64,000 nt of DNA, from positions 992,001 through 1,056,000 of the forward strand of contig NZ_CP102602.1 of assembly GCF_024707485.1 (NCBI RefSeq). The letters are read 5' to 3'. The notes beneath the pieces are model-generated. The model ran no database searches, was not told the DNA's origin, and saw nothing but the letters and a program-made list of their open reading frames with translations. How positions within the stretch are numbered: position 1 is the stretch's first letter; each line of letters begins with the position of its first letter. The position numbers and the translations under genes are program-made. Origin of the DNA: Thermococcus thermotolerans. GTDB lineage: Archaea > Methanobacteriota_B > Thermococci > Thermococcales > Thermococcaceae. Shown here one piece after another: positions 25,851 through 41,835 of the stretch.

Positions 25851-26287
25851 CGGCCACCACTTTCCTCCTCGTCGAGGGATATGTACTCTATCGTGCTTAT
25901 GTATTTGACGTACTCGATTGTCCTCTCTGGATTGAACATGTCTCGAATCAGGTTCTGGAAGTAGTCCTCCCTGTCATAGGCGACCTCGTACGCCTTCACC
26001 ACGTCCATAAATGACGAATGAAAGTTCTCCGCCTCCTCACGGACGTAAAGCTCGAAGGCGACGAAGTATCCAAACTCCCTCTCAACGGGCTCTTTTATGT
26101 TCTCGATGAAGTCCGCGACCCTGTTTATCTTGACCGGGTCGTACGGCTCGTCTATTATAACCAGAACGTCGATTTCATTAAGTTCCCCCTTGAGGTGGGC
26201 ACCGTAGAATATGACCGAGAGCAGGTTGTCTCCGTAGAACTCCATTATCCTCCGGAGGAGGCTCTCCTTTGCCGCTTCTATGCTCAT
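25847..26287 (-). CDS. MNT-fold nucleotidyltransferase-like protein
   Basis: A 146-residue protein with a nucleotidyltransferase-like segment VIFYGAHLKGELNEIDVLVII. In active MNT enzymes the matching line reads GSxARGx..SDxDLLV; here Ser becomes Ala, Arg becomes Lys and the first catalytic Asp becomes Glu, so activity may be altered or lost. It lies between mnhD (23 bp) and mobA (4-nt overlap) with a strong GGAGGTGA ribosome-binding site. No function is known. Confidence 0.6.
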   Translation of the reverse strand: MSIEAAKESLLRRIMEFYGDNLLSVIFYGAHLKGELNEIDVLVIIDEPYDPVKINRVADFIENIKEPVEREFGYFVAFELYVREEAENFHSSFMDVVKAYEVAYDREDYFQNLIRDMFNPERTIEYVKYISTIEYISLDEEESGGR

Positions 26288-26310: not shown

Positions 26311-27873
26311 TCAGGAAAAGAGGGCGGAAGCGTACTCAACGGCGGCCTTTATGTAGGCCCTGTAGTCCATCATCTGCGCCGCAGCGGGATCAACGTAGTG
26401 CTGGAGCAGGAGCGGTGCGGCGAGGCCCATCAGCACGACGGCCGCAGAGAGGAGAAGCAGCACAAAGGCCATGCTTGCGTGCTCACCCACCGTGATGTCC
26501 TCCCTCGGCTTTCCAAGCCATATCCTGTAAAGGACCCTCATGTAGGCCACCAGCGCTATCACCGAACTGAGCACGATGACCATCGCAAGCGCCAGGCTCC
26601 TTTCCATCATTGCATCGAACAGCAGAACCTTGCTGAAGAAGACGTTGAACGGGGGTATTCCTACGAGGCTTAGGGTAGCCACAGAGAGCCCAAAGGTAGC
26701 CACGGGCATCCTCCTTCCGAGGCCCGTTAAGTCCCCGATGTCCCTTGAGCCGGCTGCATGAATGAAGGCCCCGGCAGCGAGGAAGAGCAGGACCTTAGCA
26801 ATTGCGTGGTTGATCATGTGGAATATCGCCGCCTGCATGGCCAGCTGGGTTCCGGCACCAACGACCATTGCCAGGTAGCCCATGTGCATTATCGTTGAAT
26901 ACGCTATCATCTTCTTGACGTCCCTCTGGGCGTTCATCATGAGGGCCCCGAAAAGCGCCGAAACCGCACCGAGCGCCACTAGAACGGCCGCCACTCCGCC
27001 GACGACCCTCTCAAGGCCCGGCACAAGCTCACCGCCATAGACGGTGTACAGGAACCTCATGAGTGAGTATATGCCGACGTTAACCACGAGGCCCGACAGG
27101 ACAGCGGAGATGGGGCTTGGAGCTGCGGGGTGGGCCTCCGGAAGCCAGAAGTGGTTGGGGAAGATGGCGGCCTTAATGAGGAACGCCCACGTGGCAAGGG
27201 CCAGCACTATTCCGGAGGCAAGAACAACCTCTCCGACGGGGTTCCCGCTCACGGGGAAAGGAATATCATGGATCTTTGCGCTCAGGTCGGCAAAGTTGAC
27301 CGTCCCAAATGCTCCATAGAGGATTCCAAGGGCCAGGAAGTACATCGTCGTGCCGATGGCGCCTATGAAAGCGTACTTTAGTGCCGCATGAACCGCGTCC
27401 CGCCTGCCCCTGTAGAACGCGACCAGCGCGTAGGAGGCTATGCTGGTAACCTCTATCATGACAAAGAGGTTGAATGCGTCTCCCGTGAGTACAACCCCAA
27501 GCAGACCGGCCTCAAGGCCGAGGTAGAGCGTGTAGTACCACTCCAGCCCGCTTTCGCCCTCAAGGTACCTGTAGCTGTACACGGCTATGACGAACATCAG
27601 GAAGGCCGTTACCAGTGCCATCAGTGCCCCAAGCCTGTCCACCTCATATATTATGCCGATGGGGGCGACCCACTTGCCGAAGGTGTAAATCAAGGGGCTG
27701 TCTGAGGAGTACGCTCTCTGGAATAACGCGAACGAGCTTATCAGGGTGAGCCCCGTGCCCAGGAGGGCGTAGGCCTGGACGACCCTCCTGTTCCCCTTTA
27801 TCAGTATCGACGTCAGGGGGAGGGCAAAGGCAAAGAGCAGGGGTATGATTGGAGTCAGCCCTACCGCGTCCAT
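26311..27873 (-). CDS. mnhD: Na+/H+ antiporter subunit D (MnhD/MrpD)
   Basis: A 520-residue NuoL/M/N-superfamily protein with about 14 helices. The conserved VMIEVTSIASYALVAF glutamate segment, the lysine in WAFLIKAAIFPNHFWLPEAHPAAPSP and the later MIAYSTIMHMGY are proton-path features. It belongs to the Mnh block that exchanges Na+ and H+ to couple hydrogen production to a sodium gradient. It follows mnhE by 9 bp. Confidence 0.9.
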   Translation of the reverse strand: MDAVGLTPIIPLLFAFALPLTSILIKGNRRVVQAYALLGTGLTLISSFALFQRAYSSDSPLIYTFGKWVAPIGIIYEVDRLGALMALVTAFLMFVIAVYSYRYLEGESGLEWYYTLYLGLEAGLLGVVLTGDAFNLFVMIEVTSIASYALVAFYRGRRDAVHAALKYAFIGAIGTTMYFLALGILYGAFGTVNFADLSAKIHDIPFPVSGNPVGEVVLASGIVLALATWAFLIKAAIFPNHFWLPEAHPAAPSPISAVLSGLVVNVGIYSLMRFLYTVYGGELVPGLERVVGGVAAVLVALGAVSALFGALMMNAQRDVKKMIAYSTIMHMGYLAMVVGAGTQLAMQAAIFHMINHAIAKVLLFLAAGAFIHAAGSRDIGDLTGLGRRMPVATFGLSVATLSLVGIPPFNVFFSKVLLFDAMMERSLALAMVIVLSSVIALVAYMRVLYRIWLGKPREDITVGEHASMAFVLLLLSAAVVLMGLAAPLLLQHYVDPAAAQMMDYRAYIKAAVEYASALFS

Positions 27874-27882
27874 TCTACCACC

Positions 27883-28368
27883 TCACTCAAAGATTTTTCT
27901 CGCAAACTTCTCAAAGTCGGCTGAGATCTCTTTCCTTGCCTCCTCAGGATCCCTCGTGGTGACGTCTATCCAGTTAACGTAGACGTACCTCTCGTCCATG
28001 TCCACCACAACCGTTCCGGGGGTGTTGGTTATTGAGTTGGCCACGAGGGTTCTCGCGTAGTCCGTGCTGACGTCAATGGGAACCCTCACTATGCCGGGCC
28101 GGTAGTTCCCGGTCAGCGTGCGTATTATGACGTCAATGTGGCTCTTGGTCTCCGCCACCAGCATGTACCACAGGAAGTAAACGGCCATCCACAGCCACCT
28201 TATCGGGTTCAGGGCCTTTGAGTCGTCCCTGACGGTGTGGGGGCCCATCAAAAGGCCCACCACAACCGCAACTACCGCTCCAGTGGCCAGGTCGTAGGGA
28301 GTGAGGGAACCCGTGAACACGATGTAGGTGAGGAACGCCATGAGTGCCGTCGGGAGTACGCCCCTCAT
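27883..28368 (-). CDS. mnhE: Na+/H+ antiporter subunit E
   Basis: A 161-residue protein: three N-terminal hydrophobic helices, then a soluble domain with VANSITNTPGTVVVDMDERYVYVNWIDV, the MrpE signature. It overlaps mnhC by 4 nt. Compared with Mbh clusters the order E between C and D differs, but in the Mrp sense all members are present. Confidence 0.88.
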   Translation of the reverse strand: MRGVLPTALMAFLTYIVFTGSLTPYDLATGAVVAVVVGLLMGPHTVRDDSKALNPIRWLWMAVYFLWYMLVAETKSHIDVIIRTLTGNYRPGIVRVPIDVSTDYARTLVANSITNTPGTVVVDMDERYVYVNWIDVTTRDPEEARKEISADFEKFARKIFE

Positions 28369-28757
28369 TCACCACCACCCCTTCTCGCTATCTCCCTGAC
28401 GTCAAGGGTCCCGTACAGGCGGTACAGCTGCACCGTCAGGATCGCCAGGAGCATGTTGACGGCCATACCTATGACGACGGCCGTTATCACCAGGGCCTGC
28501 GGGAGCGGATCAACTGCCGAACTCAGGAACGCTCCCAGGGCGTCCCTCGATAGGGACGGCAGTATCGGGGGCGCTACTGGGTAGGTGAAACGGTAGCCGA
28601 TCAGGACAACCATGACGTTGACGGCATCGCCAAGAACCGTGAGGGCTATTATCTTCTTCAGAAGGTTCGGCCTGGCAATGACTCCGTAGAGCGCGACGCC
28701 CAGCGTCAGCAGGAGGACTGCCCACATGTATGCCCAGAGGAACTCCTGAACGCTCAT
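28365..28757 (-). CDS. mnhC: Na+/H+ antiporter subunit C (NuoK-like)
   Basis: A 130-residue protein with three helices and the MrpC/NuoK glutamate-containing pattern around LTVLGDAVNVMVVLIGYRF and PLPQALVITAVVIGMAVNML. It overlaps mnhB by 4 nt and mnhE by 4 nt. Confidence 0.9.
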   Translation of the reverse strand: MSVQEFLWAYMWAVLLLTLGVALYGVIARPNLLKKIIALTVLGDAVNVMVVLIGYRFTYPVAPPILPSLSRDALGAFLSSAVDPLPQALVITAVVIGMAVNMLLAILTVQLYRLYGTLDVREIARRGGGE

Positions 28758-29527
28758 TCGTCCACCCCCAGGATCTTCTTGAACTTCTCTTCGGGAATGG
28801 CCAGCAGGAGGAAGACCGCGGTAAATCCGGCACCCACGGCGAGGAACTCGAACAGGTTATAGTAAATCAGCGAGCCGCCGAGGGGCTGGCCTCCAAACTC
28901 GGCCGGAAAAACCGGCTGGTTCTGCATTACGTATCCGCCGTAGAGGAGCGGGATCACCGCAACCAGGGCTATTCCCAGGAGGCCGACTGAACGGAGTATA
29001 AGTGCCCTCGTCTTGTCGAACCCGCTCTTTTCAAGGGCGTACTTTGAATAGGCGGCTATTATCAGGAGCGGGGCAACCGCGAGGGCTGAACCGCCCTGGA
29101 ACCCGCCTCCGGGGGTCAGGTGGCCATGGAGCGCTATGGACGCCGAGACCGCGAGGATCATCACAACTATGACCCTCGTCACGTCCCTGACTATGGAGGT
29201 CATTTCGGCCGGAGGCCTTTCGGGCCTCTTGACTTCCTCCTCCTGCTCCTTCGTGAGCCTGAAGACGGTCAGGCTGCCTATTATCGCGAGGAAGAACACC
29301 GCCGTCTCGAAGAGCGTGTCAACGCCACGGTAGTCCCAGAGAATCGAAGTCACCACCTCCGGGCTCTTCGCAGAGTAGTCCCCAAAGTAGCTGTTGCCGA
29401 GGTAGAACTCCCCCAGGGATCTGAGCCCGGAACCCGTTCCAAGGAGCCCCGCGGAGAGGACGGCGTAGGTCATGAGGGCCGCAAAGGAGAGGATAGCGAC
29501 TGCCGTGAGGATCGACCTGCCGGCCAT
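28754..29527 (-). CDS. mnhB: Antiporter subunit B fused to MrpA C-terminal (MbhE-like) segment
   Basis: A 257-residue protein. Residues 1-100 resemble the MrpA C-terminal/MbhE piece (DYRGVDTLFETAVFFLAIIGSL), and residues 110-250 are MrpB with ALHGHLTPGGGFQGGSALA. Separate proteins in Mbh, these two pieces are joined here. It lies one base before the small DUF4040 gene stop in the antiporter block. Confidence 0.85.
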   Translation of the reverse strand: MAGRSILTAVAILSFAALMTYAVLSAGLLGTGSGLRSLGEFYLGNSYFGDYSAKSPEVVTSILWDYRGVDTLFETAVFFLAIIGSLTVFRLTKEQEEEVKRPERPPAEMTSIVRDVTRVIVVMILAVSASIALHGHLTPGGGFQGGSALAVAPLLIIAAYSKYALEKSGFDKTRALILRSVGLLGIALVAVIPLLYGGYVMQNQPVFPAEFGGQPLGGSLIYYNLFEFLAVGAGFTAVFLLLAIPEEKFKKILGVDE

Positions 29528-29782
29528 TCACACCACCTCGTACCTCTCGGTCTTGCTGATGGCGAAAACCAGGAGGGCGGAGTATATGCCGACCGCTATG
29601 GCAACGTAGGCCAGCACTATGTCCGGGGCCATCAGGATGTAGAAGGCTATGGCGTAAGCTATCGCCTGAACCGACGAGAACCCCACCGCCTTCAGCAGGT
29701 CCCTCTCAGTCACCGCAAGGTAGCTGGCAACGAAGCCGAGCATCAGTGCAAGCACCAGGATAACGAGGTGGAGCTCAACCAT
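29528..29782 (-). CDS. DUF4040 antiporter subunit (MrpA C-terminal piece, MbhD-like)
   Basis: An 84-residue protein with three hydrophobic helices; FSSVQAIAYAIAFYILMAPDIVLAY is the DUF4040 pattern. ATG at 29782 overlaps the mnhG stop by 8 nt and follows GGAGGGGG. Longer in-frame upstream codons lie inside mnhG and give Trp/Pro-rich non-family sequence, so they are rejected. Confidence 0.82.
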   Translation of the reverse strand: MVELHLVILVLALMLGFVASYLAVTERDLLKAVGFSSVQAIAYAIAFYILMAPDIVLAYVAIAVGIYSALLVFAISKTERYEVV

Positions 29783-30131
29783 CCCCCTCCACCCCCGCCA
29801 GGTGATCCACTTCCGGCTCCCAATCCACGAGTCCGGCCTTATGGGCGGCGTAGGCCAGCGCATGGCTTCCCGCGGGAGAAACAATGAGAACCACTATCCC
29901 CGTAACGAAGCTTGCACCGGCTATTGCGTACCTGTGGGGAAGGAAGTCCGCCCCGAGCGCCAGAAGGGCGACTCCAAAGAGGGGCACCGCCGCACCGCCG
30001 ATTATCCCCACGGTCGCGGCGTGCAGTCTAACGTAGAAGTTGGGGAACCTCAGCAGTCCCAGCGCCCCAAAGAAGTCACACAGTGCGCCTATGACTATTA
30101 AAAGGGCGCCAATATAGAACAGCAGGCTCAC
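29775..30131 (-). CDS. mnhG: Na+/H+ antiporter subunit G
   Basis: A 118-residue protein with three helices and the MrpG pattern LLRFPNFYVRLHAATVGIIGGA. The C-terminal 25 residues are polar. It overlaps mnhF by 4 nt and the DUF4040 gene by 8 nt. Confidence 0.9.
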   Translation of the reverse strand: MSLLFYIGALLIVIGALCDFFGALGLLRFPNFYVRLHAATVGIIGGAAVPLFGVALLALGADFLPHRYAIAGASFVTGIVVLIVSPAGSHALAYAAHKAGLVDWEPEVDHLAGVEGDG

Positions 30132-30412
30132 GCTCCCACCTCCCCTTCGGCTATGTGCTTGGCGACGTATATGTCCAGCAGGTAGCCCCAGAGTGCGAGA
30201 ACCATCGCCCCGCTGACGAGGTAAACGCTCCTGAAGTAAACCGCGAGGATGGCCATGAAAGCGGCAACGTCGAAGGAAAGGCAGTCAACGGCGAGGATTA
30301 TGTCGGCTATGGTCGGGCCTTTGAATGCCCTGACTGCGTAAAGGACGAAGGCCAGGAGGTATATGGGCATGACAAACTTCATGAGCAGCATGAACTGGGA
30401 TTCGAGGCCCAT
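30128..30412 (-). CDS. mnhF: Na+/H+ antiporter subunit F
   Basis: A 94-residue protein with three helices; RAFKGPTIADIILAVDCLS is the MrpF signature (GPT and DR-like VD). ATG at 30412 has GGAGGTGA 5 nt upstream, so it is preferred over the GTG 9 nt further upstream. It begins the antiporter block directly after the small unknown subunit. Confidence 0.9.
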   Translation of the reverse strand: MGLESQFMLLMKFVMPIYLLAFVLYAVRAFKGPTIADIILAVDCLSFDVAAFMAILAVYFRSVYLVSGAMVLALWGYLLDIYVAKHIAEGEVGA

Positions 30413-30417
30413 ACGAA

Positions 30418-30723
30418 TCACCTCCTAACTATTTTCAGCTTGGCATCGGGTTCAAGGGCCTGGGCGACCTTCAGCAGCAGTTCTCTGTCGGCGTCTGGAA
30501 TCTTCCCCATGGGGATCAGCACGAAGTCGCTCAGGGACAGGTCTATCTCATTTCCCCTTGCACCCAGGCTCTCCTTTATCACGTCAACCGTCGCTTCCTT
30601 CAGCGTTCCCAGTTCTTCCAGCACCGCCATGTCGCCGGCAAAGTGCGCCATCGCCTTCGAGACGTAAGGTGGATTAACGTACACCAGCTTTAACAAGTGC
30701 CAGGTGCCTCTTTTCGTAGGCAT
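30418..30723 (-). CDS. Small conserved-looking subunit between hydrogenase and antiporter blocks
   Basis: A 101-residue soluble protein of mixed alpha/beta sequence, no cysteines and no membrane segment. I do not recognise the family. ATG at 30723 lies 50 bp inside the small-subunit gene and has GGAGG 7 nt upstream, so it is accepted; a GTG at 30684 is an alternative. It occupies the junction between the hydrogenase and Mnh modules, where it could be a linker or assembly factor, which is only inference. Confidence 0.65.
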   Translation of the reverse strand: MPTKRGTWHLLKLVYVNPPYVSKAMAHFAGDMAVLEELGTLKEATVDVIKESLGARGNEIDLSLSDFVLIPMGKIPDADRELLLKVAQALEPDAKLKIVRR

Positions 30724-31474
30724 CCTTCAACCTCCAGTACTCGTTTTCGAGGAACCTTATCGCGAACTTCACACGGGAGTCCTTCTCCCTCAGGAAGTAG
30801 CCGATGACCAGCTCGTGGAGCCTCTCCCTCGGGTTCTCGCTCTCCTGGGCCTTCTCCACGAGGGCCATGAAGTCCTCGAGAACCTTCTCCCTGTCAAAGT
30901 ATCCCACGACGCGCCTCAGGGATTCTCTGAGCGTCAGGTAAATCCTCTCCTCAATCGGCCTGTCGGGCAGGACGAACTCAATCTCGTCTGCATAGTAGTA
31001 CTCGCCCTTCATCTTCTTCTCCTTCAGGCCGAGAAGCTGGGCCAGTCCATAGAGTATCTCCTCCGGACTCGGTGGGCATCCTGGTATGTACATGTCGGGC
31101 TTTTTCCCGTACTCCGCCAAAAGAACCTCTATTCCACCAGTCCTGAGCCTGTCGCTTCCCCTCTCCGGGTTCGGGTTGTAGATTGGGTAACCATTGTAGA
31201 ATATACCGCCGCTGGACGCGCAGGTGCCTATGGCAACAACTATCCTAGGCTTCGGCGGCATCGCCTCGTAAGCGGCCTTGACAGCGTAGTAAGTCTGCCT
31301 CGTGAGTGGGCCTGAAACGAGGAGGGCATCGGCATGTCTTGGACTCGGCACGAGCTTTATTCCGAGCCTCTCGGCGTCGTAGTAGGGCGTGAGCACGTCG
31401 AGTATCTCTATGTCGCAGCCGTTGCAGCTCCCACTGTCAACGTGGAAGACCCAAACGGACTTCAACCCGCTCAT
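30674..31474 (-). CDS. [NiFe] hydrogenase small subunit (NuoB/HycG/MbhJ type)
   Basis: A 266-residue protein carrying the proximal [4Fe-4S] ligands: Cys17 and Cys20 in GSCNGCD, a third in AIGTCASSGG and a fourth in IPGCPPSPEE. The C-terminal 100 residues are a charged helical extension. It passes electrons from the ferredoxin subunit to the [NiFe] site. Overlaps the ferredoxin gene by 4 nt. Confidence 0.93.
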   Translation of the reverse strand: MSGLKSVWVFHVDSGSCNGCDIEILDVLTPYYDAERLGIKLVPSPRHADALLVSGPLTRQTYYAVKAAYEAMPPKPRIVVAIGTCASSGGIFYNGYPIYNPNPERGSDRLRTGGIEVLLAEYGKKPDMYIPGCPPSPEEILYGLAQLLGLKEKKMKGEYYYADEIEFVLPDRPIEERIYLTLRESLRRVVGYFDREKVLEDFMALVEKAQESENPRERLHELVIGYFLREKDSRVKFAIRFLENEYWRLKDAYEKRHLALVKAGVR

Positions 31475-32088
31475 CTCCTCTCACCCATCACCTTTGAGCC
31501 TCTCGGATATAGGGAAAGGAGAAGGCTATCCGCATAGGGCCCTTGAACCGCTAGGGTCTTGGCGCTCTCCTCCATCCTGCACTCCCTGCAGAGAAAAGCC
31601 CTCTCGGCTATGCCGTGCTGGTCAATGACTTCCTTCGGAAGAATCTGGAACATCTTCTCTATCTGCCTCTCGGTGAACTCCTCGTACCGCCCACAGCGCG
31701 GGCATCTGTAGAGCTTGTGGTCAACGACCTCGATGAGGTCTTCCTTGTTCGGCGTCGCTATCTCGAACCTCGTTGTGCCCTGCATCGCACCGGTTGGACA
31801 GACCTCGACGCAGCGGTGGCACCTTATGCAGCGCGCGGCGTTGAAGACGATTCTCTTCCTCCCGTTCTCGAAGTCCCACTCTATCGTGAGCGCGTCTGGT
31901 GGACAGGCCCTAACACAGGCGCCACAGCCAATGCAGAGGTTGGGGTCTATGTGAGGTATGCCCCTATATTCCGGCGGCTTCTCAATCTCAATGAAGGGAT
32001 AGGGGGTGGTAACAGGAGCTTTCTTAACCTCCTCCTCAGGCCGTCTCCAGAACTTGAGCCTGTCGGTGAATGAAATCGCCTGGGCCAT
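31471..32088 (-). CDS. Ferredoxin subunit of the membrane hydrogenase (NuoI/HycF type)
   Basis: A 205-residue protein with two [4Fe-4S] motifs, CIGCGACVRACP (about 52-63) and CIRCHRCVEVCP (about 87-98), plus two later CxxC pairs (CPRCG and CRECR) that could bind zinc or iron. It links the electron-input module to the hydrogenase small subunit. Overlaps the large-subunit stop by one base (TGATG). Confidence 0.92.
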   Translation of the reverse strand: MAQAISFTDRLKFWRRPEEEVKKAPVTTPYPFIEIEKPPEYRGIPHIDPNLCIGCGACVRACPPDALTIEWDFENGRKRIVFNAARCIRCHRCVEVCPTGAMQGTTRFEIATPNKEDLIEVVDHKLYRCPRCGRYEEFTERQIEKMFQILPKEVIDQHGIAERAFLCRECRMEESAKTLAVQGPYADSLLLSLYPRGSKVMGERR

Positions 32089-33839
32089 CAGGCCACCCCC
32101 TTGCCCTTCTGTATTGAGAGCATGTTGAACTGCTGCTCGTTCAGAGTCTGGGCCTTTCCGGTCTCAACGTCCACTATCTGGACCCTCTCCGTACAGGAGT
32201 AGCACGGATCTATGCTCGCTATGATGAGCGGAGCATCGGCGACGCTGTAGCCCTTGAGCATCTCCGGAACAGCCGGAAGGTTGTTGTAAGTCGGCGCCCT
32301 GACCTTCCAGCGGTAGACCTTGTTCTTTCTGTCGGTCATGACGTAGTGGACGACCTCACCCCTTGGAGCCTCGCTGTAGCCAAGGGCCTCTTCATACTCC
32401 GGAAGCTCCCCTATCGGCACGAAGACGTCTCCTCCGGGCATTTGGTCGATGGCCTGCTCGATTATCCATATGCTCTCGAACACCTCGTCCATCCTGATGA
32501 GGAACCTTGCCAAGACGTCGCCCTCCTTGTAAACCGGCACCTTGAAGTCCAGATCCTTGTAGGCCGCGAAGGGCTGGTCTCTCCTGACGTCAATGTTCCT
32601 TCCGCTGGCCCTGCCGTTCGGACCGAGAACAGAGTATGCCTTGGCAACTTTGTACGGCAGAATTCCAACGCCCTCTGCCCTCTTGACGAAGGTTGCCGTA
32701 CCGGTCGCTATCTCGATGAACTCTTCGACCTGCTTCCTGAGCTCCCTGATCTTCTCCATTATCATCTCCTTGCGGTAGTCGAGGAAGTCCCTCCTAACTC
32801 CCCCAACGATGTTGATTCCGTAGGTCTTCCTGTTCCCGGTAAGCCTCTCTGCGAGCCACATGACGGGCTCCCTTATGCGCCAGGCGTGCATGAAGCCAGT
32901 GTCAAAGCCGGTAAGGTGGGCGGCAACTCCCGCCCAGAGCAGGTGGGAGTGGAGCCTCTCTATCTCAAGCATTATTGTCCTTATGTACATGGCCCTCTCA
33001 GGGATTTCAACGCCCGCTATGTTTTCAACAGCCTGAGCGTAGCTCGTTGAGTGCTGGAAGCCACAGATTCCGCAGATCCTCTCGGCTATGAAGAGCACCT
33101 GGTTGTAGGTCAGCCTTCCTTCCCCTATCTTCTCGATTCCCCTGTGGGAGTAGAAGCCGCGGTAGTCAACGTCAACCACCGTCTCTCCCTTGACGAATAT
33201 CCTGAAGTGGGCCGGCTCGTCGAGCGCCAGGTGGTACGGACCAATCGGAACCGTCATCGTGTCGGGCGGCCCGGGCTTGTAGTAGCACTTTGGCGTGTCC
33301 ATCGGCGAGGCCTTGTAGTCATGATCCTTCCTGAGAGGGTAGACCCCTTCCGGCCAGTCCTCCGGCAGGACGAGTCTCCTCAGGTCGGGGTGGCCCTTGG
33401 GATTGAAGCCGAGCAGGTCGTAGACTTCCCTCTCCGCCCACATGGCGGCCGGAAGCTCCGAGGCTATGGATGGGAACTCGGGGTTGTCCTCGTCGAGGTA
33501 GGCCTTGAGAACGACCCAGTAGTTCCTGGTGCCATCCCCCGGAACCACCTGGACGTTTATCACCGGAGCGTAGACGAACTTCCCCGCTATGCTCCTCTCG
33601 TCCGTCCCTATGCCCATTGAAAAGTGGGTCTCTGGAATTTCCCTGTTGTTGTGCCAGTAGTCAACCATTGCCGGAAGGGCGTCCCTGTTAACAACGAACA
33701 TGTACTGGTTTCTCACCAGCCTCCGGCACTCCAGGATATCCTTCCCGAACCTCTCAACAAACTCCCTCAGGTGAACGTCCTCAAGGACTTCTACAGCGTC
33801 GGCACTCCTGCATCCACCACTGCAGACTGCACACTCCAT
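32088..33839 (-). CDS. [NiFe] hydrogenase large subunit with NuoC-like N-terminus (HycE type)
   Basis: A 583-residue fusion: residues 1-170 are NuoC-like (REVYDLLGFNPKGHPDLRRLVLPEDWPEGVYPLRKD), the rest the catalytic large subunit. Nickel ligands are RICGICG (L1) and DPCYSCTER (L2), so it is catalytic and not a Nuo relic. A 30-residue tail after DPCYSCTER is the expected substrate of HycI. The extreme N-terminus holds an extra CAVCSGGC motif. ATG at 33839 follows GGGGTGGTGAA; GTG codons 6-9 nt upstream are rejected. Confidence 0.93.
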   Translation of the reverse strand: MECAVCSGGCRSADAVEVLEDVHLREFVERFGKDILECRRLVRNQYMFVVNRDALPAMVDYWHNNREIPETHFSMGIGTDERSIAGKFVYAPVINVQVVPGDGTRNYWVVLKAYLDEDNPEFPSIASELPAAMWAEREVYDLLGFNPKGHPDLRRLVLPEDWPEGVYPLRKDHDYKASPMDTPKCYYKPGPPDTMTVPIGPYHLALDEPAHFRIFVKGETVVDVDYRGFYSHRGIEKIGEGRLTYNQVLFIAERICGICGFQHSTSYAQAVENIAGVEIPERAMYIRTIMLEIERLHSHLLWAGVAAHLTGFDTGFMHAWRIREPVMWLAERLTGNRKTYGINIVGGVRRDFLDYRKEMIMEKIRELRKQVEEFIEIATGTATFVKRAEGVGILPYKVAKAYSVLGPNGRASGRNIDVRRDQPFAAYKDLDFKVPVYKEGDVLARFLIRMDEVFESIWIIEQAIDQMPGGDVFVPIGELPEYEEALGYSEAPRGEVVHYVMTDRKNKVYRWKVRAPTYNNLPAVPEMLKGYSVADAPLIIASIDPCYSCTERVQIVDVETGKAQTLNEQQFNMLSIQKGKGVA

Positions 33840-33841
33840 TT

Positions 33842-34744
33842 TCACCACCCCACCAGAGCTATGAACAGGACACCAACGGCCACCGCGAAAACCTTCTTGT
33901 TCAGGGAAACCGCCTGGTCTATCCTGAGCCGTGCGTTCGCGGCCTCAACCGCGACCGCCGCTATGTAGAGTATGGACAGCACAGCAACTTGAACGAGCAC
34001 CAGAGCCATCCCTCCCGAGATTCCGGCGGCACGGGCGGCCGGCACGGCGATGAGTGTGGCGAGGAGCCACAGAAGCACGACCCTCTTTATGAGCAGTGCG
34101 TACCTGAAAACACCGAGGAGCCTGCCGCTGTACTCGGTGAACGGGCCCCCGATTACCTCCGTCTCGGCCTCTGCGATATCGAAGGGGACAAACCCTCCCT
34201 CGGCGTAGGCGGCGTAGGCGAGTAGGATGTAGGCGAGGAGCACCGAGGGAGAGGGGCTGACACCGGAGGCCAGCTCCGCGATGTTGAGGGTTCCCGCCTT
34301 GAAGGCCAGGACGCCAAGGACAACAGCAAGGAGGGGCTCTATCGAGAGCACCATCATTACTTCCCTGTGCCCACCTATGTGGGAGAACGCGTTCTGAACC
34401 GAAAATGCGGCGAGTACGGTAACCACACTGACCATGGCCACGACATAGAAGAACACTATCAGGCCCTTTCCGAACTCCAGCACGGGTTCGCTTCCAAAGG
34501 GCAGCATAAGCCCCCCAGCGAGGGCAGCTGCGAAGGCCAGGTAGGGGGCCAGCCGGAACATGGGATTCTCCGTCGGAACCACGGATGGGAGCCTGAAGAG
34601 CTTTTCGAGGTCGTAGAACGTCTGGAGCAGGGGCGGCCCCCTGCGGTACTGTATCCTTGCCTTTACCCTCCTCCCGATTCCATCAAGGAGGGGAGGGAGG
34701 ACGAGGAGCACGAGGAAGGCAGAGACAACACTCACCGCGTTCAT
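33842..34744 (-). CDS. NuoH/HycD/MbhM-like membrane subunit
   Basis: A 300-residue protein with about eight helices and the NuoH-type loops RIQYRRGPPLLQTFYDLEKLF and VPFDIAEAETEVIGGPFTEYSG, which contact the quinone-site-like region and couple electron transfer to ion movement. ATG at 34744 follows GAGGTGGTG. It ends three bases before the large-subunit ATG. Confidence 0.92.
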   Translation of the reverse strand: MNAVSVVSAFLVLLVLPPLLDGIGRRVKARIQYRRGPPLLQTFYDLEKLFRLPSVVPTENPMFRLAPYLAFAAALAGGLMLPFGSEPVLEFGKGLIVFFYVVAMVSVVTVLAAFSVQNAFSHIGGHREVMMVLSIEPLLAVVLGVLAFKAGTLNIAELASGVSPSPSVLLAYILLAYAAYAEGGFVPFDIAEAETEVIGGPFTEYSGRLLGVFRYALLIKRVVLLWLLATLIAVPAARAAGISGGMALVLVQVAVLSILYIAAVAVEAANARLRIDQAVSLNKKVFAVAVGVLFIALVGW

Positions 34745-34754
34745 CTTCACCACC

Positions 34755-36734
34755 TCACAGCACTAGCAGGGCAAGCACCACCACTGCCGTTATCATCGAA
34801 ACGAGGAAGAGGTCGTCCATTGAGAGGGACACTCCCGAGGACAGGACGGTGATGTTCCTGACCAGGCCCATCAGGGGCGCGAAGAATGCCTCGTCCAGGT
34901 ACCTGCTGGCGTGGCTGCGGAGCTCGTCGAGTGTAAAGGAGCGCTTTTTCTCCCTGCCTGTATAAACAAGACCCCTGGCAAGGAACAGGTAGACAGATAC
35001 GAAGGCCGAAAGAACTGCCCTTCCTGCGTTCCCCACTGCACTTCCGAGCCTGTAAACCTCCCCCATCTCCTCGAAGTACTGCTTGTAGTAGTCTTCTGAC
35101 CTGGCCCCGTATCTCTCTTCGGGTAGGAAGAGCGCGCCTGCGTTCCAGGGCTCTGCATTAGCTTTCTCGGGCCTGAGGACGAAGTATACTGCGACTGCGG
35201 CAAACGAAAGCGCAAGAAGCAGGGCAATGGGGGAGAAGTACCCAAAGCCCGTTGATACGGAGCCGGGTGTAACGGTTATGCCCCCTCCGTTCAGCGATAT
35301 TGTCAGCACGGGATAAACGAGGACCGGGAACACACCAACGGCGAAGGATGTCAGCGCGAGGATGCCCTCAGCAAGAAGCATTCCCGGGGGAACTTCTGCC
35401 ACTTTCTCTGTTCTGACCCTGGATTTGCCGCCGAAGGCCGAAGTGTAGAACTTGAGTGAGTAGGCAAGGGTCACTGCGCTCATGAAAACCGCAATCACGG
35501 AGCCAAAGACAAAGAGGCCGACTCCAGAGTAGTAGCCGGCCTGGTAAATCATCCACTTCGAGAGGAAGCCGCTGAAGAGTGGAACTCCTGCGAGGGAGAG
35601 TGCCCCCACAACCGTGAAGAGCGACGAGTATGGCATTGCCCTCCTCAAACCACCGAGCTCGTTGAGGTCAGATGTCCCCGCGGCGTACTCGAAGTTGCCG
35701 GATATAAGGAAGAGGAGCCCCTTGAACAGAGTGTGGTTGAAGGAGTGGAAGACTCCAGCGAGGAAGGCCAAGTAGGCCAGGTTTTCCATGCCCCTTGTCA
35801 GGAAGACCATCCCCATGCCCACAGCGAACCATATGTACCCCATCTGGCCGACGCTCGAATATGCAAGGAGCCTCTTTGCCCGGTTCTCCCTCAGGGCATA
35901 GAGGGTTCCCGACACCATGGTGATTATTCCAAGAGCGGCCAAGATGTACCCCACGCTCCCACTGCACGGAAGGGCGTTGCAGAGGAGTCTGACCAGGCCG
36001 TAAACGGCCATTTTCTCCATGGCGCCGGCCATCAGCGAAGCAACGTTGCTCGGGGCGGAGTCATAGGCATCCGCCACCCAGAACTGGAATGGGACGCTCC
36101 CAGACTTGGCCAGGAAGGTCACGAGGAACATCGCGTAGAGCAGCTTGAGCTGGGTGGGGGAGAGTGACGCTGCGACTTCTTTAAGCGTGGCGTAATCAAC
36201 GCTGAAGCTTCCAGTGGCGGAGTAGATTATGCCGAGGGCTATGAAGAGGGGCACGGTGTTGAAAACCTGCATGGTGAGGAGGTACTTTATTCCGGCGTCC
36301 TGCCTTCTCCAGCTCACGAAGACAAAGGAAGTCAGAGTCATCAACTCCCAGAAGAACACGAACCAGAGCAGGTCGGAGGCGAGTGCAACGAAGACCATCG
36401 AAATAATGAAGAAACCGTAGGCCAGCGTGTACGCAAAGGGCCTATCCCTATCCTTATGGAGTCCCATGTAAGGGATAGAATAGATCGACACAACGAGGCT
36501 CAGGAACGCTATTATGAACAGGAACGGGAGGGAGAGGCTGTCTATAACCACCGGCACCCCCAGAATGCTCTCCCGAACCGGGAGCCCACTGGAGAGGGCA
36601 CCAACCGCGACGCCGATGAGGGAAACCGACGCCAGTGCGGAGAGCACCCCAGAGGCCTTAACGCCCCTCTTAAACTCCCCAAACAGACCCGAAACCGCGG
36701 AGAGGGAGTAGAGCGCTATGGGAATTTCCATCAT
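34755..36734 (-). CDS. Proton-pumping NuoL/HyfB-like subunit
   Basis: A 659-residue protein with 14-16 helices, including WFVFFWELMTLTSFVFV (Glu), FLAKSGSVPFQFWVADAYDSAPS (Lys) and LLAYSSVGQMGYIW. Its length and C-terminal lateral region with a charged stretch near residues 510-610 fit HyfB/HycC type. One of two such subunits in the hydrogenase block, in addition to MnhD of the antiporter. Confidence 0.88.
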   Translation of the reverse strand: MMEIPIALYSLSAVSGLFGEFKRGVKASGVLSALASVSLIGVAVGALSSGLPVRESILGVPVVIDSLSLPFLFIIAFLSLVVSIYSIPYMGLHKDRDRPFAYTLAYGFFIISMVFVALASDLLWFVFFWELMTLTSFVFVSWRRQDAGIKYLLTMQVFNTVPLFIALGIIYSATGSFSVDYATLKEVAASLSPTQLKLLYAMFLVTFLAKSGSVPFQFWVADAYDSAPSNVASLMAGAMEKMAVYGLVRLLCNALPCSGSVGYILAALGIITMVSGTLYALRENRAKRLLAYSSVGQMGYIWFAVGMGMVFLTRGMENLAYLAFLAGVFHSFNHTLFKGLLFLISGNFEYAAGTSDLNELGGLRRAMPYSSLFTVVGALSLAGVPLFSGFLSKWMIYQAGYYSGVGLFVFGSVIAVFMSAVTLAYSLKFYTSAFGGKSRVRTEKVAEVPPGMLLAEGILALTSFAVGVFPVLVYPVLTISLNGGGITVTPGSVSTGFGYFSPIALLLALSFAAVAVYFVLRPEKANAEPWNAGALFLPEERYGARSEDYYKQYFEEMGEVYRLGSAVGNAGRAVLSAFVSVYLFLARGLVYTGREKKRSFTLDELRSHASRYLDEAFFAPLMGLVRNITVLSSGVSLSMDDLFLVSMITAVVVLALLVL

Positions 36735-36740
36735 GGCACA

Positions 36741-38192
36741 TCACCCCATGAACCCTATCTGAGTCACGAGCTTCACGCTGAGGAACGGGGCAACGATGGA
36801 CAAGACTATTAGGACTACGAGGACAAAGCGCATCAGAGGAGAAACTTCTGCACTCTCCTGGAGGGACTCACTGAACACCATCTTCTTTATCCACCCCAGG
36901 GAAACGGCGAGGAAAACCGTGGCATCGGCGAGGACGAGGAGGAGTGGAATCCAGCCGACCCAGCCGGTTATTGAAGAGGCGTTCATGAAGAGGTACGCCT
37001 TGCTGAAGAATAGGCCGAGCGGAGGAACCCCTGCCAGGCCAAGGAGTGCAAGGAACCAGCTGGCTCCAACGACGGGAGCGAGCTTACTGAGGCCCTTAAT
37101 CTTCTCCATGTCAAGCGTCCCGAAGGCGTAGCTGAACGTTCCTGCGGTGAGGAAGGCAAGACCCTTGACGAAAGCGTGATTGGCCAGCTGGAACATGGCC
37201 GCCTGGAGGCCGTAAGCCGAACCGAGCACGGCGTAGAGCACGCCGACGTACATTACCCCCGCCTCGGCTATCGTTGAGTACGCCAAAAGCCTCTTGGCAT
37301 CCCTCTGGAGGGGATAGTATAACATCGCCACGAGCAGGGTGAGGGACACGAAAACCAGCATGATGTAGAACGCCTCCTTTGGGAGAGGCTGCATGAACTG
37401 GGAGACTCTGGCGAGCAGGTAAACGCCCATCTCGACCATTGCCGCTCCGTGGAGGAAGGCCGAAGCAGGCGTTGGGGCGGCCATCGCATCTGGAAGCCAC
37501 GAGTAGAGGGGGAACTGGGCGCTCTTGGTGAAGGCCGCTATCATGATACCCACGAACACGAGGAGTTTCATACCTCCCTCAAGGCCTCCCAGCGCATACA
37601 GGCTGAGGTCGTGGAGCTTCAGGATGCCCACACCCACAGCGGTGTAGAGACCCACCATGGCACCGAAGTTCGGCACGAGCAGGGCCTTGTATGCGGCCCT
37701 CTCGGCTTTCGGGCTCTTATAGTACCCAACGACACCCCAACACGCTAAACCCATTATCTCGAAGAATATAAGCAGTTGAAGCGTCGTGGAGGAGTATATG
37801 AACGCCAGCGTGGCACCAACGAATATGACCATCCAAGCATAGAAGCGCCCTTTGTCTGAGTAAACAGGGTGCTGTTTGTTGTTCTCGCTCATGTAATCTA
37901 TAGCGTACGCCAGGAACAGCACGCCGGCCAGACTCACTACGAACCCGACGAGGACACTCATGGGGTCGATTATAACGCCGTAGACCTCGCCGAGGGAAGC
38001 CGTATCCAGGTAAACCACATGGTATGAACCGCCGGATGACAGGTATCCGATGGTCCCGGCGAGGTTGGCAAGGAAGGACGCGATGACGGTGATGATCATA
38101 AAGGCGTCGGCCTTCCTGCCGTCCAGCAGGAAGAGGAACGGGCCGAGAACCAGGGGTATAAGAAAAGAGAGTACAAACGGAAGGACCTCCAT
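36741..38192 (-). CDS. Second proton-pumping NuoL/M/N-like subunit (HyfF/MrpD-like)
   Basis: A 483-residue membrane protein with about 14 helices: LIFFEIMGLACWGVVGYY, FTKSAQFPLYSWLPDAMAAPTPASAF and LLAYSTIAEAGVMY are antiporter-type channel features. ATG at 38192 gives the family start MEVLPFVLSF; the longer frame begins inside the gap and is rejected. It ends six bases before the next subunit. Confidence 0.88.
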   Translation of the reverse strand: MEVLPFVLSFLIPLVLGPFLFLLDGRKADAFMIITVIASFLANLAGTIGYLSSGGSYHVVYLDTASLGEVYGVIIDPMSVLVGFVVSLAGVLFLAYAIDYMSENNKQHPVYSDKGRFYAWMVIFVGATLAFIYSSTTLQLLIFFEIMGLACWGVVGYYKSPKAERAAYKALLVPNFGAMVGLYTAVGVGILKLHDLSLYALGGLEGGMKLLVFVGIMIAAFTKSAQFPLYSWLPDAMAAPTPASAFLHGAAMVEMGVYLLARVSQFMQPLPKEAFYIMLVFVSLTLLVAMLYYPLQRDAKRLLAYSTIAEAGVMYVGVLYAVLGSAYGLQAAMFQLANHAFVKGLAFLTAGTFSYAFGTLDMEKIKGLSKLAPVVGASWFLALLGLAGVPPLGLFFSKAYLFMNASSITGWVGWIPLLLVLADATVFLAVSLGWIKKMVFSESLQESAEVSPLMRFVLVVLIVLSIVAPFLSVKLVTQIGFMG

Positions 38193-38205
38193 TTCAGCAC
38201 CCCCC

Positions 38206-38703
38206 TCATCTGATGATGTACGCCTCAAGGACGTTTGTTCTGTCCCCGATGTCCTTAAGCTCGGCGACTATCTTTCCTTCCCTTGCCCACAGCACGTCGT
38301 TTATATCACCGTACTTGAGGGCCTCGGTCGGACAGGCGGAGACACATGCCGGCATCCTGCCGTCGGCTCTCCTGTGGGCGCAGAGGTCGCACTTGTCCAT
38401 GATCTTGTTGTACTCGTCGATCTTTGGAATGCCGAACGGACACGCCAGGCCGCACATGAGACAGCCGATACACTTGAGGGGGTCGAGAACAACAGCACCG
38501 TCCTCGTCCTTGGAGAGGGCATTGACCGGACAGGCCTCCATACACGGTGCCTTTTCACAGTGGCGGCAGTTGAAGGCGACGCTGGTGAGGTCGGGGAACT
38601 CAAACACCCTTATCCTTGCTTCGCCGTGCTCCATCTCACAGGCGACTTCACAGGCCTTACAGGCAATGCAGCGCTTAAAATCGATAAATATCTTCTTGCT
38701 CAT
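38206..38703 (-). CDS. Four-cluster ferredoxin electron-transfer subunit (HycB/FdhB type)
   Basis: A 165-residue protein with four cysteine groups: CIACKACEVAC, CRHCEKAPCMEACP, CIGCLMCGLACP and CDLCAHR..CVSACP, the DMSO-reductase beta pattern. It carries electrons from the pterin subunit encoded next to it to the hydrogenase ferredoxin. Starts five bases after the FdhA-like stop. Confidence 0.93.
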   Translation of the reverse strand: MSKKIFIDFKRCIACKACEVACEMEHGEARIRVFEFPDLTSVAFNCRHCEKAPCMEACPVNALSKDEDGAVVLDPLKCIGCLMCGLACPFGIPKIDEYNKIMDKCDLCAHRRADGRMPACVSACPTEALKYGDINDVLWAREGKIVAELKDIGDRTNVLEAYIIR

Positions 38704-38708
38704 CTAAA

Positions 38709-40772
38709 TCACCCCTCAACCTTGGAGATCCTACAGGCGGCCGCCTTCAGTTCGGGCATCTTCGCGTACTCGTCCAGCGCGTCCTTGGTGAGGTAGTTGA
38801 AGTCCCAGTGCCACGGTGCGGCAACGACGCCCTCCCTGATGTGCGGTGTGACTCTAGCCTTGAAGACGAGCGCCCCGCGCCTGGTCTCGACCCTCACGAG
38901 GTCGCCGTCCTTTATGCCGAGCCTCTTCGCGTCGTTCTCGTTGATCTCAATGTACTCCTCCGGCCACCTCTTGCTCAGGCTCTTGCTCCTGTGGCTCATG
39001 GTTCCGGTGTGGAAGTGGCCAACGAGCCTGTAGTTGGTGAGCCAGAAGGGATACTCCTCATCGGGAACCTCTCCGGGCTCCTTGTACTCAACAGGTATGA
39101 GTTGGGCCTTCCCGCTGGGCGTGAGGAACCCGTCAACAAAGAGCCTCGGGGTCTCTGTCTCCTCGTCGGGACATGGTATCATACAGCCGGAGAGCTTGTT
39201 CTTGAGCCTCTCGGGGGTCGCACCCGTGAGGAAGGGTATGGTTCTGTTGATCTCCCTCAAGACGTCGTCAACGTCTGAGTAATTGAAGTACTCACCGAGA
39301 CCCAGCTCCCTCGCGAGCATAACAAGGATCTCCCAGTCAGGCTTTGCCTCTCCCGGTGCGTCAGCAGCCTTAAAGCTCCTCTGCACCCTTCTCTCGAAGC
39401 TTATAGCGGTTCCATCCTTCTCAAACCATGCAGCCGCTGGAAGTACTATGTCGGCGTATTTCGCGGTCTCAGTAAGGAAGATATCCTGGACGACGAGGAA
39501 CTCGATGTTCTTAAAGGCTTCCTCAGCCTTCTTGAGGTTCGGAAGGGCCCTGGCAGGGTTGGTTCCCATGACGTAGAGGGCCTTGAGCTTGCCCTCAAGG
39601 ATTGCGTCAATCATCTCAACGTAGGTGATTCCAGGCTTCTCCGGGATCTTGAAGCCCCATGCCTCCTCGATTCTCCTCTTGTGCTCCTCGGCGTGGAGCG
39701 GGAATCTTCCTGGCAGTTCGTGTGGCCCAACGCCCATGAGGCCAGCGCCCATACCGTTGTGGGCACCGGGTATAGCTCCAGACATAACGCCCTCCTTTCC
39801 AAAGTAGCCGCAGAGAACCATCATCTCGGTAATGGCCATGACGGTCCTCGTTCCGTTGGCGTGCTGGTTCACACCCTCGTTCGTCAGCAGGGCGGCGGTT
39901 CCAGCCGTTGCAAAAGTGATTGCGGCCTTCCTTATGAGCTCGGCCGGAACACCGCTGACCTTTTCAGCCCACTCGGGGGTGTACTTTTTGATGGTCTTGG
40001 CGAGCTCCTCAAAGCCTTCCGTGCGCTCCGCCACGAAGTCCTTATCGTAGAGCTCCTCGGTGATTATGACGTTGAGCATAGCCAAGGCAACGGCAAGGTC
40101 AGTTCCTGGATAGGGTTGTATGTGTATGTCCGCGTACTTCGCGGTCTTTGTCTTCCTCGGGTCAACGACGATTAGCTTGGCACCGTTGTCGAGGATTGCC
40201 TTCTCAATGTACTGGCCGAAGAAGACCGGGTTGGTCGCAGCCGGATTGTATCCCCAAAGAACGATAACCTTGGCCTTGAGGATGTCCTCGAAGGGATTCG
40301 TGAGTCCAGGGTGTCCAAGAACCATCCCCTTACCTGCAACTGAAGTTGACTGACACATCCTGCATACATACTCGACGTTGTTGGTTCCCAGAGCCCTCGC
40401 CAGCTTCTGGAGAACGTAGTTCTCCTCTATGGAGCACCTTTCACTTCCAAGAAAAGCGAGAGCCTCCGGGCCGTACTTCTCCTTGAGCTCCCTGAGCTTT
40501 CCGGCGATTTCTTTAATAGCTTCCTCCCAGCTTATCTCCACAAACTTGCCCTCGCCCCTCTCGCCAACTCTTTTAAGGGGCCTCTTAAGCCTGTCTGGGT
40601 GCCTGAGGTACTGGAAGGCAGCGACACCTTTCGGACAGAGCTTGCCGTGGTTTCTAGTCTCGTGGTCGTAGTCAAACTCAATCTTCTTTGGATACCCGTT
40701 GACGTTCACTATGTAGAACCTACAGCCGACGGAACACCACGGGCAGACCACTGGCACGAGCTTCTCTGCCAT
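38709..40772 (-). CDS. Bis-MGD Mo/W oxidoreductase, formate dehydrogenase alpha-like
   Basis: A 687-residue protein with the N-terminal [4Fe-4S] motif CPWCSVGC..LCPKG (about 10-49) and four MPT-binding domains. The metal ligand is Cys140 in VCRMCQSTSVAG, at the position of E. coli FdhF Sec140. Two formate-site residues differ by eye alignment: the His after it is Gln141, and the Arg of VRGQNN is Pro335 in IPGAHNGMG. Its operon (ferredoxin, membrane hydrogenase, Mnh, mobA) is the formate-hydrogenlyase type, so formate is the default call but uncertain. ATG at 40772 follows GGTGGTG; the upstream GTG is rejected. Confidence 0.8.
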   Translation of the reverse strand: MAEKLVPVVCPWCSVGCRFYIVNVNGYPKKIEFDYDHETRNHGKLCPKGVAAFQYLRHPDRLKRPLKRVGERGEGKFVEISWEEAIKEIAGKLRELKEKYGPEALAFLGSERCSIEENYVLQKLARALGTNNVEYVCRMCQSTSVAGKGMVLGHPGLTNPFEDILKAKVIVLWGYNPAATNPVFFGQYIEKAILDNGAKLIVVDPRKTKTAKYADIHIQPYPGTDLAVALAMLNVIITEELYDKDFVAERTEGFEELAKTIKKYTPEWAEKVSGVPAELIRKAAITFATAGTAALLTNEGVNQHANGTRTVMAITEMMVLCGYFGKEGVMSGAIPGAHNGMGAGLMGVGPHELPGRFPLHAEEHKRRIEEAWGFKIPEKPGITYVEMIDAILEGKLKALYVMGTNPARALPNLKKAEEAFKNIEFLVVQDIFLTETAKYADIVLPAAAWFEKDGTAISFERRVQRSFKAADAPGEAKPDWEILVMLARELGLGEYFNYSDVDDVLREINRTIPFLTGATPERLKNKLSGCMIPCPDEETETPRLFVDGFLTPSGKAQLIPVEYKEPGEVPDEEYPFWLTNYRLVGHFHTGTMSHRSKSLSKRWPEEYIEINENDAKRLGIKDGDLVRVETRRGALVFKARVTPHIREGVVAAPWHWDFNYLTKDALDEYAKMPELKAAACRISKVEG

Positions 40773-40791
40773 ACCCACCACCAGCCCGATG

Positions 40792-40805
40792 ACTGACTAG
40801 TCAGT
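40792..40805 (-). promoter_or_regulatory. Perfect palindrome, probable TetR-family operator
   Basis: ACTGACTAGTCAGT is a perfect 14-bp palindrome, of the TGACTGACTAGTCA type bound by AcrR/TetR regulators. It lies 20-33 bp upstream of the FdhA-like start codon and directly downstream of the predicted transcription start, where a bound repressor would block transcription. Confidence 0.65.
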
Positions 40806-40840: not shown

Positions 40841-41181
40841 ATTTTCCCTAACCTTATGTCCGGCGGGAGATTTGATTTTTAATGTAATTTTATGACCATT
40901 TGGTCAATTAATAACAAAAATTACACATTTTCCCAAATCCGGGAAATCATAGTGTTCAGACGACCGTGATAATGCTAAAATCCGTAATATCACACGAATA
41001 TTCATGTACAATCCGAACCTTCCATATCGAAGGACAACAGTGGACATAGTTCAGTAAATTAAACCTCTAAACAAAAGTTCGAGATGTAAATACAATAGTA
41101 TACACTGCCCCGGGCTTTTCACATCCTAGCAAAAAAATTTCGAAAAAATTTGAAAATACGAAATATCAAACATGAAAACAA

Positions 41182-41733
41182 TTAGTTTCTCAAGCTTCTC
41201 TCTATCAAGCGGATAATTTCCGAAACATAATCGACATCTGGTGCGCAAGAATAACCCGCAAAGATAAGCCTGGAGAGCAGGGCCCCGTAAAAAGCCTTGA
41301 ACACGACCACAGCAGTACGCTCATCAACCCCAGCAAGCTCCGCTATTTTCTTTGCACCCTTTGAGATGGCCTCTGTGCAGAACGTCCTGTGTATCTCCTC
41401 AACCTCCCTGATCCTGTTTTTGGCCGCGAGGGTATAGAAAAAGAGCGACCTAAGCACCGGATCGCAGTAGTATCGTATGTACGCGTTGGCGATGCTCTCA
41501 AGGAACTCCCTCAGACTGCCGTGATCCTTCTCAAGCTCCTCCCTTATGGCAGAGTACGGGAGGGACTCAAGGGCCACGATTTTTATGAGCTCCTCTTTGC
41601 TCCGGAAGTGGTTGTAGAATGTACCCTTTGCGACACCTGCCTTCTCAACTATCTCGTCCACGGTGGTCTCATCGTATCCCTTTTCAGCAAAAAGCTTTTC
41701 TGAGGCCTTTAAAATCTTCTCCCTGGTGTCCAT
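41182..41733 (-). CDS. TetR/AcrR-family transcriptional regulator
   Basis: A 183-residue regulator. The N-terminal helix-turn-helix is typical: REKILKASEKLFAEKGYDETTVDEIVEKAGVAKGTFYNHFRSKEEL, here cited in parts (residues 3-48). The C-terminal ligand domain is all-helical and contains two cysteines that might report redox state. It is encoded on the same strand 410 bp upstream of the FdhA-like operon and divergent from hypC. The palindromes ahead of that operon make it the likely repressor. TetR regulators are uncommon in Thermococcales. ATG at 41733 is chosen over upstream GTG codons for family fit. Confidence 0.85.
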   Translation of the reverse strand: MDTREKILKASEKLFAEKGYDETTVDEIVEKAGVAKGTFYNHFRSKEELIKIVALESLPYSAIREELEKDHGSLREFLESIANAYIRYYCDPVLRSLFFYTLAAKNRIREVEEIHRTFCTEAISKGAKKIAELAGVDERTAVVVFKAFYGALLSRLIFAGYSCAPDVDYVSEIIRLIERSLRN

Positions 41734-41835
41734 AGCCCGCACTCTCCACACACCACTGGACGCGGTTTATACAGCGTAATTAAAAAGGTTACGGCGCGAT
41801 AGAACAAAAAAGAACATCCTCTGGATGGCCGACCC

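Follow-up and report, generated by a model that had tools for sequence, protein, structure and literature searches.

The stretch of Thermococcus thermotolerans DNA analysed here (64,000 nucleotides, referred to as the window) contains an operon in which a formate dehydrogenase-like catalytic subunit (FdhA; 38709..40772, minus strand) is encoded together with a membrane-bound hydrogenase and a Na+ antiporter. The operon itself is known and carries the name formate hydrogenlyase 1. Its product is a redox-driven pump of the formate-hydrogenlyase type in which two residues that define formate dehydrogenases (FDHs) have been lost, and this raises the question if formate is the substrate of this machinery at all. 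We found no earlier report of the missing catalytic residues among the open-access papers searched.

Active-site residues of the FdhA-like subunit

The fdhA reading frame codes for 687 amino acids when counted from the ATG at 40772 (an alternative GTG start would give 38709-40781). In an L-INS-i alignment with E. coli FdhF (translation of NC_000913), Cys140 falls on the metal ligand Sec140, Gln141 on the catalytic His141 (codons at 40350..40355, minus strand) and Pro335 on Arg333 (39768..39770, minus strand). The Arg333/Pro335 loop is ungapped in this alignment (VNPVRGQNNVQG vs SGAIPGAHNGMG; an initial MAFFT alignment had two gaps there), and phmmer alignments of the window FdhA to PDB formate dehydrogenases gave the same residue pairing, which confirms what a preliminary description had assigned by eye. 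Further second-sphere positions are changed as well: Glu299 (39876..39878, minus strand) stands for Met297, Ala337 for Gln335 and Met341 for Gln339. Arg or Lys at residues 327-348 is absent from all 41 members of the clade described below, and the only basic residues within 326-348 are Lys/Arg326 and, in part of the members, His338. A shift of the alignment that masks the Arg was ruled out on the grounds of this loop without Arg or Lys and the ungapped alignment with FdhF.

The D. vulgaris enzyme holds formate through a hydrogen bond from R441, T450 also taking part, and its H193 shifts on reduction (PMC9820355). By offset from the Arg, D. vulgaris R441, H193, Q447 and M405 would correspond to Pro335, Gln141, Met341 and Glu299 of the window FdhA. 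The Arg of R. capsulatus FDH is the binding place of azide and probably of formate/CO2, and the enzyme became a nitrate reductase when His and Arg were replaced and an extra Arg was introduced (PMC10385643); the substitutions found here in nature thus belong to a type that alters the substrate.

Most of the protein is nevertheless that of a formate dehydrogenase. The preliminary description had the [4Fe-4S] part in place, and cysteines 10, 13, 17 and 46 are indeed retained, as is Lys48 (Lys44 of FdhF). The AlphaFold model (mean pLDDT 93) has formate dehydrogenases and Nap as its best PDB matches; FdhF is alike in fold (TM 0.92-0.94 by model length), [4Fe-4S] site and MGD domains. Fold and overall sequence count against a non-formate reading, and so does the score of 729.8 bits with the NCBIfam equivalog TIGR01591 (formate dehydrogenase alpha; cut-off 666.25). 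On this evidence the subunit could still be a formate dehydrogenase with a rearranged site, in which Gln141, Lys/Arg148, His/Gln338 and Lys/Arg408 bind formate and Glu299 serves as the base. We consider this possible, but doubtful: a Glu in place of Met beside the active site does not favour it, and further points on both sides are given below.

The nitrate reductases NapA, NarB and NasA likewise have a Cys ligand and no FDH-type His or Arg (Met and Thr are found there). Their Arg nine residues further on is Gly344 in the window FdhA, which moreover has Glu299 where they have Met. A NapA/NasA-type enzyme was therefore ruled out by Gln141, Pro335 and Gly344, as opposed to the Met, Thr and downstream Arg (GGR motif) of the Nap type. 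Comparison of the window fdhA with seven close orthologues yielded dN/dS values of 0.04-0.07, so FdhA is under purifying selection, in use and not decaying; with dN/dS at about 0.05 and intact partner genes, a pseudogene was ruled out.

A clade with invariant Cys-Gln-Pro

Relatives were collected from 94 Thermococcaceae genomes and from a collection of bacterial and archaeal contigs, and 171 of them were aligned. Among distinct sequences, Cys-Gln-Pro occurs in 41/41 members of one clade (the "CQ" or Fdh1 clade), and Cys/Sec-His-Arg in 88/88 canonical relatives; four others are of the T. litoralis type (Cys-His, the Arg being replaced by Ala), and the remainder is mostly nitrate-reductase-like. 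The CQ set forms a single clade with support of 100/100 (IQ-TREE), nested among the canonical Thermococcales enzymes, and this tree speaks for one origin of the residue set. Members come from Thermococcus, Pyrococcus and three Anaerolineae metagenome-assembled genomes (MAGs); in a scan of 115 genomes of the phylum, close relatives were confined to the Thermococcaceae. The idea that the site is shared by the Thermococcus family as a whole could not be upheld, as the same order, and often the same genome, has canonical Cys-His-Arg paralogues beside the CQ clade.

Pairs of clade members share as little as 51% identity. Of the 687 columns, 181 do not vary, and Gln141, Pro335, Ala337 and Glu111, the last a gain of the clade, belong to these. 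Invariance of Gln141 and Pro335 in 41 sequences of such divergence rules out chance or sequencing error. Every member has Lys or Arg at positions 148 and 408, where nearly all canonical enzymes have Leu and a hydrophobic residue, respectively, and the position of FdhF Gln339 (341) has changed from Gln to a hydrophobic residue. The resulting fingerprint is E111-C-Q-K/R148-E299-N302-P335-A337, with Glu299 present in 39 of the 41 members. The two exceptions, which retain Met, make up subclade B (L114:8463-11035 and L115:1669-8711), where FdhAB of the CQ clade is encoded without neighbouring hydrogenase genes (MhyFGH). The first of these adjoins genes for a TauE/SafE exporter and a DUF169 protein. 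A distant relative from Tuberibacillus calidus (L054:10001-12043) has Cys-Gln but retains the Arg (LRGHNN), so the His-to-Gln change occurs outside the CQ clade too.

Other basic residues, of the kind that formate binding by a different set of residues would need, are seen in the sequence alignment in the form of the clade-specific Lys/Arg148 and Lys/Arg408. Conserved throughout the clade, they are a point in favour of a formate enzyme, and judged from the alignment either might replace the role of the lost Arg. It weighs against this that two of the three catalytic residues and the Gln residues beside them are changed in all CQ members, while they are retained by Fdh2, Fdh3 and the solo FdhA (see below), which in many cases come from the very same genome.

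With two catalytic residues gone, FdhA might also have ceased to be a catalyst and have become an electron-transfer part, structural or regulatory in function, of a hydrogenase fed by ferredoxin. In the wider family, NuoG members have lost the metal site. Here, the Cys ligand, Lys48 and the cluster cysteines are retained, a mobA gene is part of the operon, and the residues that have come in at the changed positions are distinct and do not vary in the clade, which makes a non-catalytic FdhA very improbable.

One genome, which we take to be that of T. onnurineus NA1, has three FdhA genes where fdh1, fdh3 and fdh2 are expected. The window FdhA is 93% identical to the fdh1 product (TON_0281), 55% to Fdh3 and 51% to Fdh2, and it groups with Fdh1 in alignment and tree, by which an orthologue of the proven Fdh2 was ruled out. 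No difference from T. onnurineus Fdh1 (fdh1-mfh1-mnh1), a formate dehydrogenase by its published name, was found, the operon and the Cys-Gln-Pro set being the same, and on sequence grounds we assign the window FdhA as the catalytic subunit of the Fdh1-Mfh1-Mnh1 complex. Its relatives include those of P. abyssi and T. gammatolerans (Mhy1). The role of T. onnurineus Fdh1 is given as not settled in published work. A Thermococcus subunit that has both a formate role and the same Gln and Pro was looked for and not encountered: T. onnurineus Fdh2 and Fdh3, for both of which a formate role has been shown, have Cys-His-Arg. A literature search turned up no assay of a CQ enzyme. Fdh2-Mfh2-Mnh2 (TON_1563-1580), the proven formate hydrogenlyase, resembles the window unit in having FdhA, FdhB, hydrogenase and antiporter in one operon, but differs by its Cys-His-Arg and by a formate transporter gene nearby. 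The W-containing NADP-dependent formate dehydrogenase Fdh3 (TON_0539) shares the Cys ligand; unlike the window FdhA, it has Cys133-His134-Arg324 and a soluble NAD(P) partner instead of a membrane hydrogenase.

The FDH-MHY unit of T. litoralis, adjoining sulfhydrogenase I, is a hydrogenlyase operon without a transporter as well. Operons of this type are those of L164-L167 (G077:C1:574989-576893). They differ from the CQ clade in that the His is retained and in that the tree places them apart, beside the Fdh2 group. Since the T. litoralis type has Ala where the Arg would be, both transporter-less groups of "formate hydrogenlyases" are devoid of the Arg. The T. litoralis hydrogenlyase (L166; His, no Arg) speaks for formate use by Fdh1, as it made formate-dependent H2, albeit "not fully reproducible" (PMC2432063).

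Operon, regulator and expression

All genes of the operon are on the minus strand. Downstream of fdhA follow an FdhB-like [4Fe-4S] electron-transfer subunit (38206..38703), the HyfD/NuoL-like antiporter-type membrane subunit MhyC (36741..38228), the HyfB/NuoN-like MhyD (34755..36734), the NuoH-like membrane subunit MhyE (33842..34753), the [NiFe]-hydrogenase large subunit MhyF (32088..33848) with both CxxC motifs (ICGIC, DPCYSC), the HycF/NuoI-like ferredoxin subunit MhyG (31471..32088) and the NuoB-like hydrogenase small subunit MhyH (30674..31474). A small conserved subunit without Pfam or NCBIfam match (30418..30723) is, by position and size, probably the published MhyI. Next come an Mrp/Mnh Na+/H+ antiporter module (MnhD-, E-, C-, B-, MbhD-, G- and F-like; 26311..30421), a conserved protein of 146 amino acids (25847..26287), again without Pfam or NCBIfam match and part of the operon in Thermococcus, P. 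abyssi and Anaerolineae, and the Mo-cofactor guanylyltransferase MobA (25269..25850). Both small proteins are conserved through the clade, bacteria included. The coupling to a membrane hydrogenase and a Na+ antiporter that had been proposed is thus found at the gene level, and the electron path is intact. The partner hydrogenase is of the Hyc/Hyf type, as in the case of E. coli FdhF.

The order in the CQ clade is TetR, operator, FdhA, FdhB, MhyC-H, the small MhyI-like subunit, the Mnh module (not in every member) and the 146-aa protein, joined by MobA in several members. Gene order and the subunits of the electron path are retained in Thermococcus, Pyrococcus and the Anaerolineae. That the operon type equals that of the proven formate hydrogenlyase is in line with formate as the substrate. 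The operon in the Anaerolineae MAGs (L006, L007 and L011) probably reflects a transfer between archaea and bacteria. In L006, genes for a GAF histidine kinase and a LuxR-type response regulator are found upstream, in the place of TetR.

The operon has a private regulator gene of the TetR family upstream (41182..41751, minus strand), with homologues upstream of Pyrococcus and Thermococcus clade members. We predict a TetR-type operator, TGACTAGTCAGTCA, just upstream of fdhA (40790..40803, minus strand), which is the sole match in the genome with at most one mismatch. Among the Thermococcales members whose promoter could be read, all but L114 have the palindrome TGACYRGTCAGTCA (on either strand) some 30 bases ahead of the fdhA start; it was not found in the Anaerolineae members or L114. 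A second palindrome, TTGACCAAATGGTCA (40892..40907), is present in part of the CQ clade. We infer from position and conservation that the TetR protein binds the fdhA palindrome. Of 12 further genomes, 10 have the operator; in these and in the window genome there are one or two copies each, confined to the fdhA locus. As a consequence, a regulon search for the substrate yielded only a DUF302 gene in subclade D. There, a second operator copy is located just before the DUF302 gene, upstream of tetR. A DUF302 gene with its own operator is seen at L178:17779-18171 (T. gammatolerans type), with equivalents in L180 and L118.

No SurR site (GTTnnnAAC) was detected between 40773 and 41180 in the window promoter, and the site is likewise mutated at T. 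piezophilus fdh1, as published. The T. piezophilus fdh1 cluster was also reported to respond to pressure, as did other clusters, which counts against a non-formate reading. In sulfur-grown T. onnurineus, levels of TON_0276, TON_0280 and TON_0281 were higher, contrary to the trend among its other hydrogenases; in the proteome, TON_0280 (Fdh1B) and TON_0281 (Fdh1A) were detected only on sulfur and not on formate, CO or starch, and the hydrogenase subunit TON_0276 was quantified on CO and starch as well (PMC4463584). The authors read Fdh1 in sulfur cells as formate removal, which would suit a formate enzyme; that the catalytic subunits went undetected on formate (PMC4463584) would not. As the medium may differ too, "sulfur" may here stand for peptides or redox state.

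The same expression data, with Fdh1 proteins raised or present only on sulfur, unlike other hydrogenases (PMC4463584), could point to the reverse direction, in which H2 or reduced ferredoxin drives the reduction of a sulfur compound or another acceptor as part of the sulfur response. One may add that the subclade D operator is common to a DUF302 gene, that DUF302 genes are found in sox clusters of sulfur oxidisers (PMC5037610), and that one subclade B unit adjoins the TauE/SafE-type exporter gene. These links are weak and indirect, however, neither DUF302 nor TauE having an established role here. Furthermore, H2-driven sulfur reduction via a cytoplasm-facing energy-converting hydrogenase would probably consume the ion gradient, and the nearest sequences are dehydrogenases, not sulfur reductases. 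We therefore regard the reverse direction as unlikely.

Formate context and proposed function

The CQ unit is present in 38 of the 94 Thermococcaceae genomes (about 40%), counting FdhA matches of at least 58% identity. A formate transporter (PF01226) had no match in the window genome; it was found in 22 of the 94 genomes, all 22 of which also have a canonical gene of the fdh2/fdh3 type (Fisher p about 1e-15). Of the 24 genomes that have the CQ unit but no transporter, 19 also lack every canonical hydrogenlyase and NADP-linked enzyme (FHL/Nfd). The window unit is probably the transporter-less type termed "Group 4: fhl only" by Holden and Sistu (2023). Among 30 strains, only the 11 with the transporter used or secreted formate, and the 19 without it neither grew on formate nor secreted it (PMC10025317). 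Such a pattern agrees with a non-formate role, though the transporter is a confounder: the lack of formate growth in CQ-only species may be due to the missing transporter rather than to the enzyme. If the subunit did use formate, it would be internal formate from peptide or purine metabolism, hence no transporter, and the unit would be the formate-removing hydrogenlyase that the papers assume. Speaking against this, Fdh2 was "solely essential" for growth of T. onnurineus on formate despite the presence of Fdh1 (PMC5522443), so formate growth rests on Fdh2 alone.

The window genome encodes a second FdhA (L157:8982-11021; G000:C1:1329017-1330993), a solo subunit with Cys-His-Arg near purM and purF; where a formate role is likely, this genome has thus retained the formate residues. 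The solo gene adjoins genes for UPF0175 and DUF3368 proteins. Also present in the window genome is a molybdopterin oxidoreductase of 636 amino acids (L003:520-2430; G000:C1 about 385-387 kb) with matches below cut-off to formate dehydrogenase and DMSO/thiosulfate reductase models.

Of the two options put forward at the outset, a substrate other than formate or formate bound by other residues, the former is the more probable on this evidence. We consider it rather probable that the bis-MGD dehydrogenase passes electrons from a donor other than formate to the Na+-coupled hydrogenase. According to this proposal, the retooled FdhA would oxidise a low-potential substrate, the electrons would travel via the clusters of FdhA and FdhB to the [NiFe] hydrogenase MhyF-H to form H2, and the antiporter-like modules would turn the energy into an H+/Na+ gradient. 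The dedicated TetR protein would act as a repressor at the fdhA-promoter palindrome and be released by the substrate or a related compound, and the unit would therefore be made only when this compound is present, in T. onnurineus in the sulfur/peptide culture and not on formate. Since the anion-binding Arg is gone and a Glu has come in, we guess that the substrate is not a small free anion; it might be an aldehyde, for instance, or some other neutral compound of the carbonyl or sulfur kind.

Whether the CQ clade represents a new hydrogenlyase class is evenly balanced. In this view, its W/Mo bis-MGD enzyme would oxidise an unrecognised and probably neutral substrate, and H2 formation and Na+ pumping would be coupled to this reaction; the class would be widespread among the Thermococcales, would extend to Anaerolineae MAGs and would go under the wrong name, formate hydrogenlyase, in databases and papers. 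Published surveys count the operon as formate hydrogenlyase and explain formate and H2 metabolism at vents by it. If formate is not used, a Na+-coupled, H2-producing machine in about 40% of the Thermococcaceae genomes searched would burn another fuel, and annotation by the formate dehydrogenase model would be wrong for the whole CQ clade. With Fdh1, Fdh2 and Fdh3 together, the genetically tractable T. onnurineus offers a natural series on the roles of the second-sphere His and Arg.
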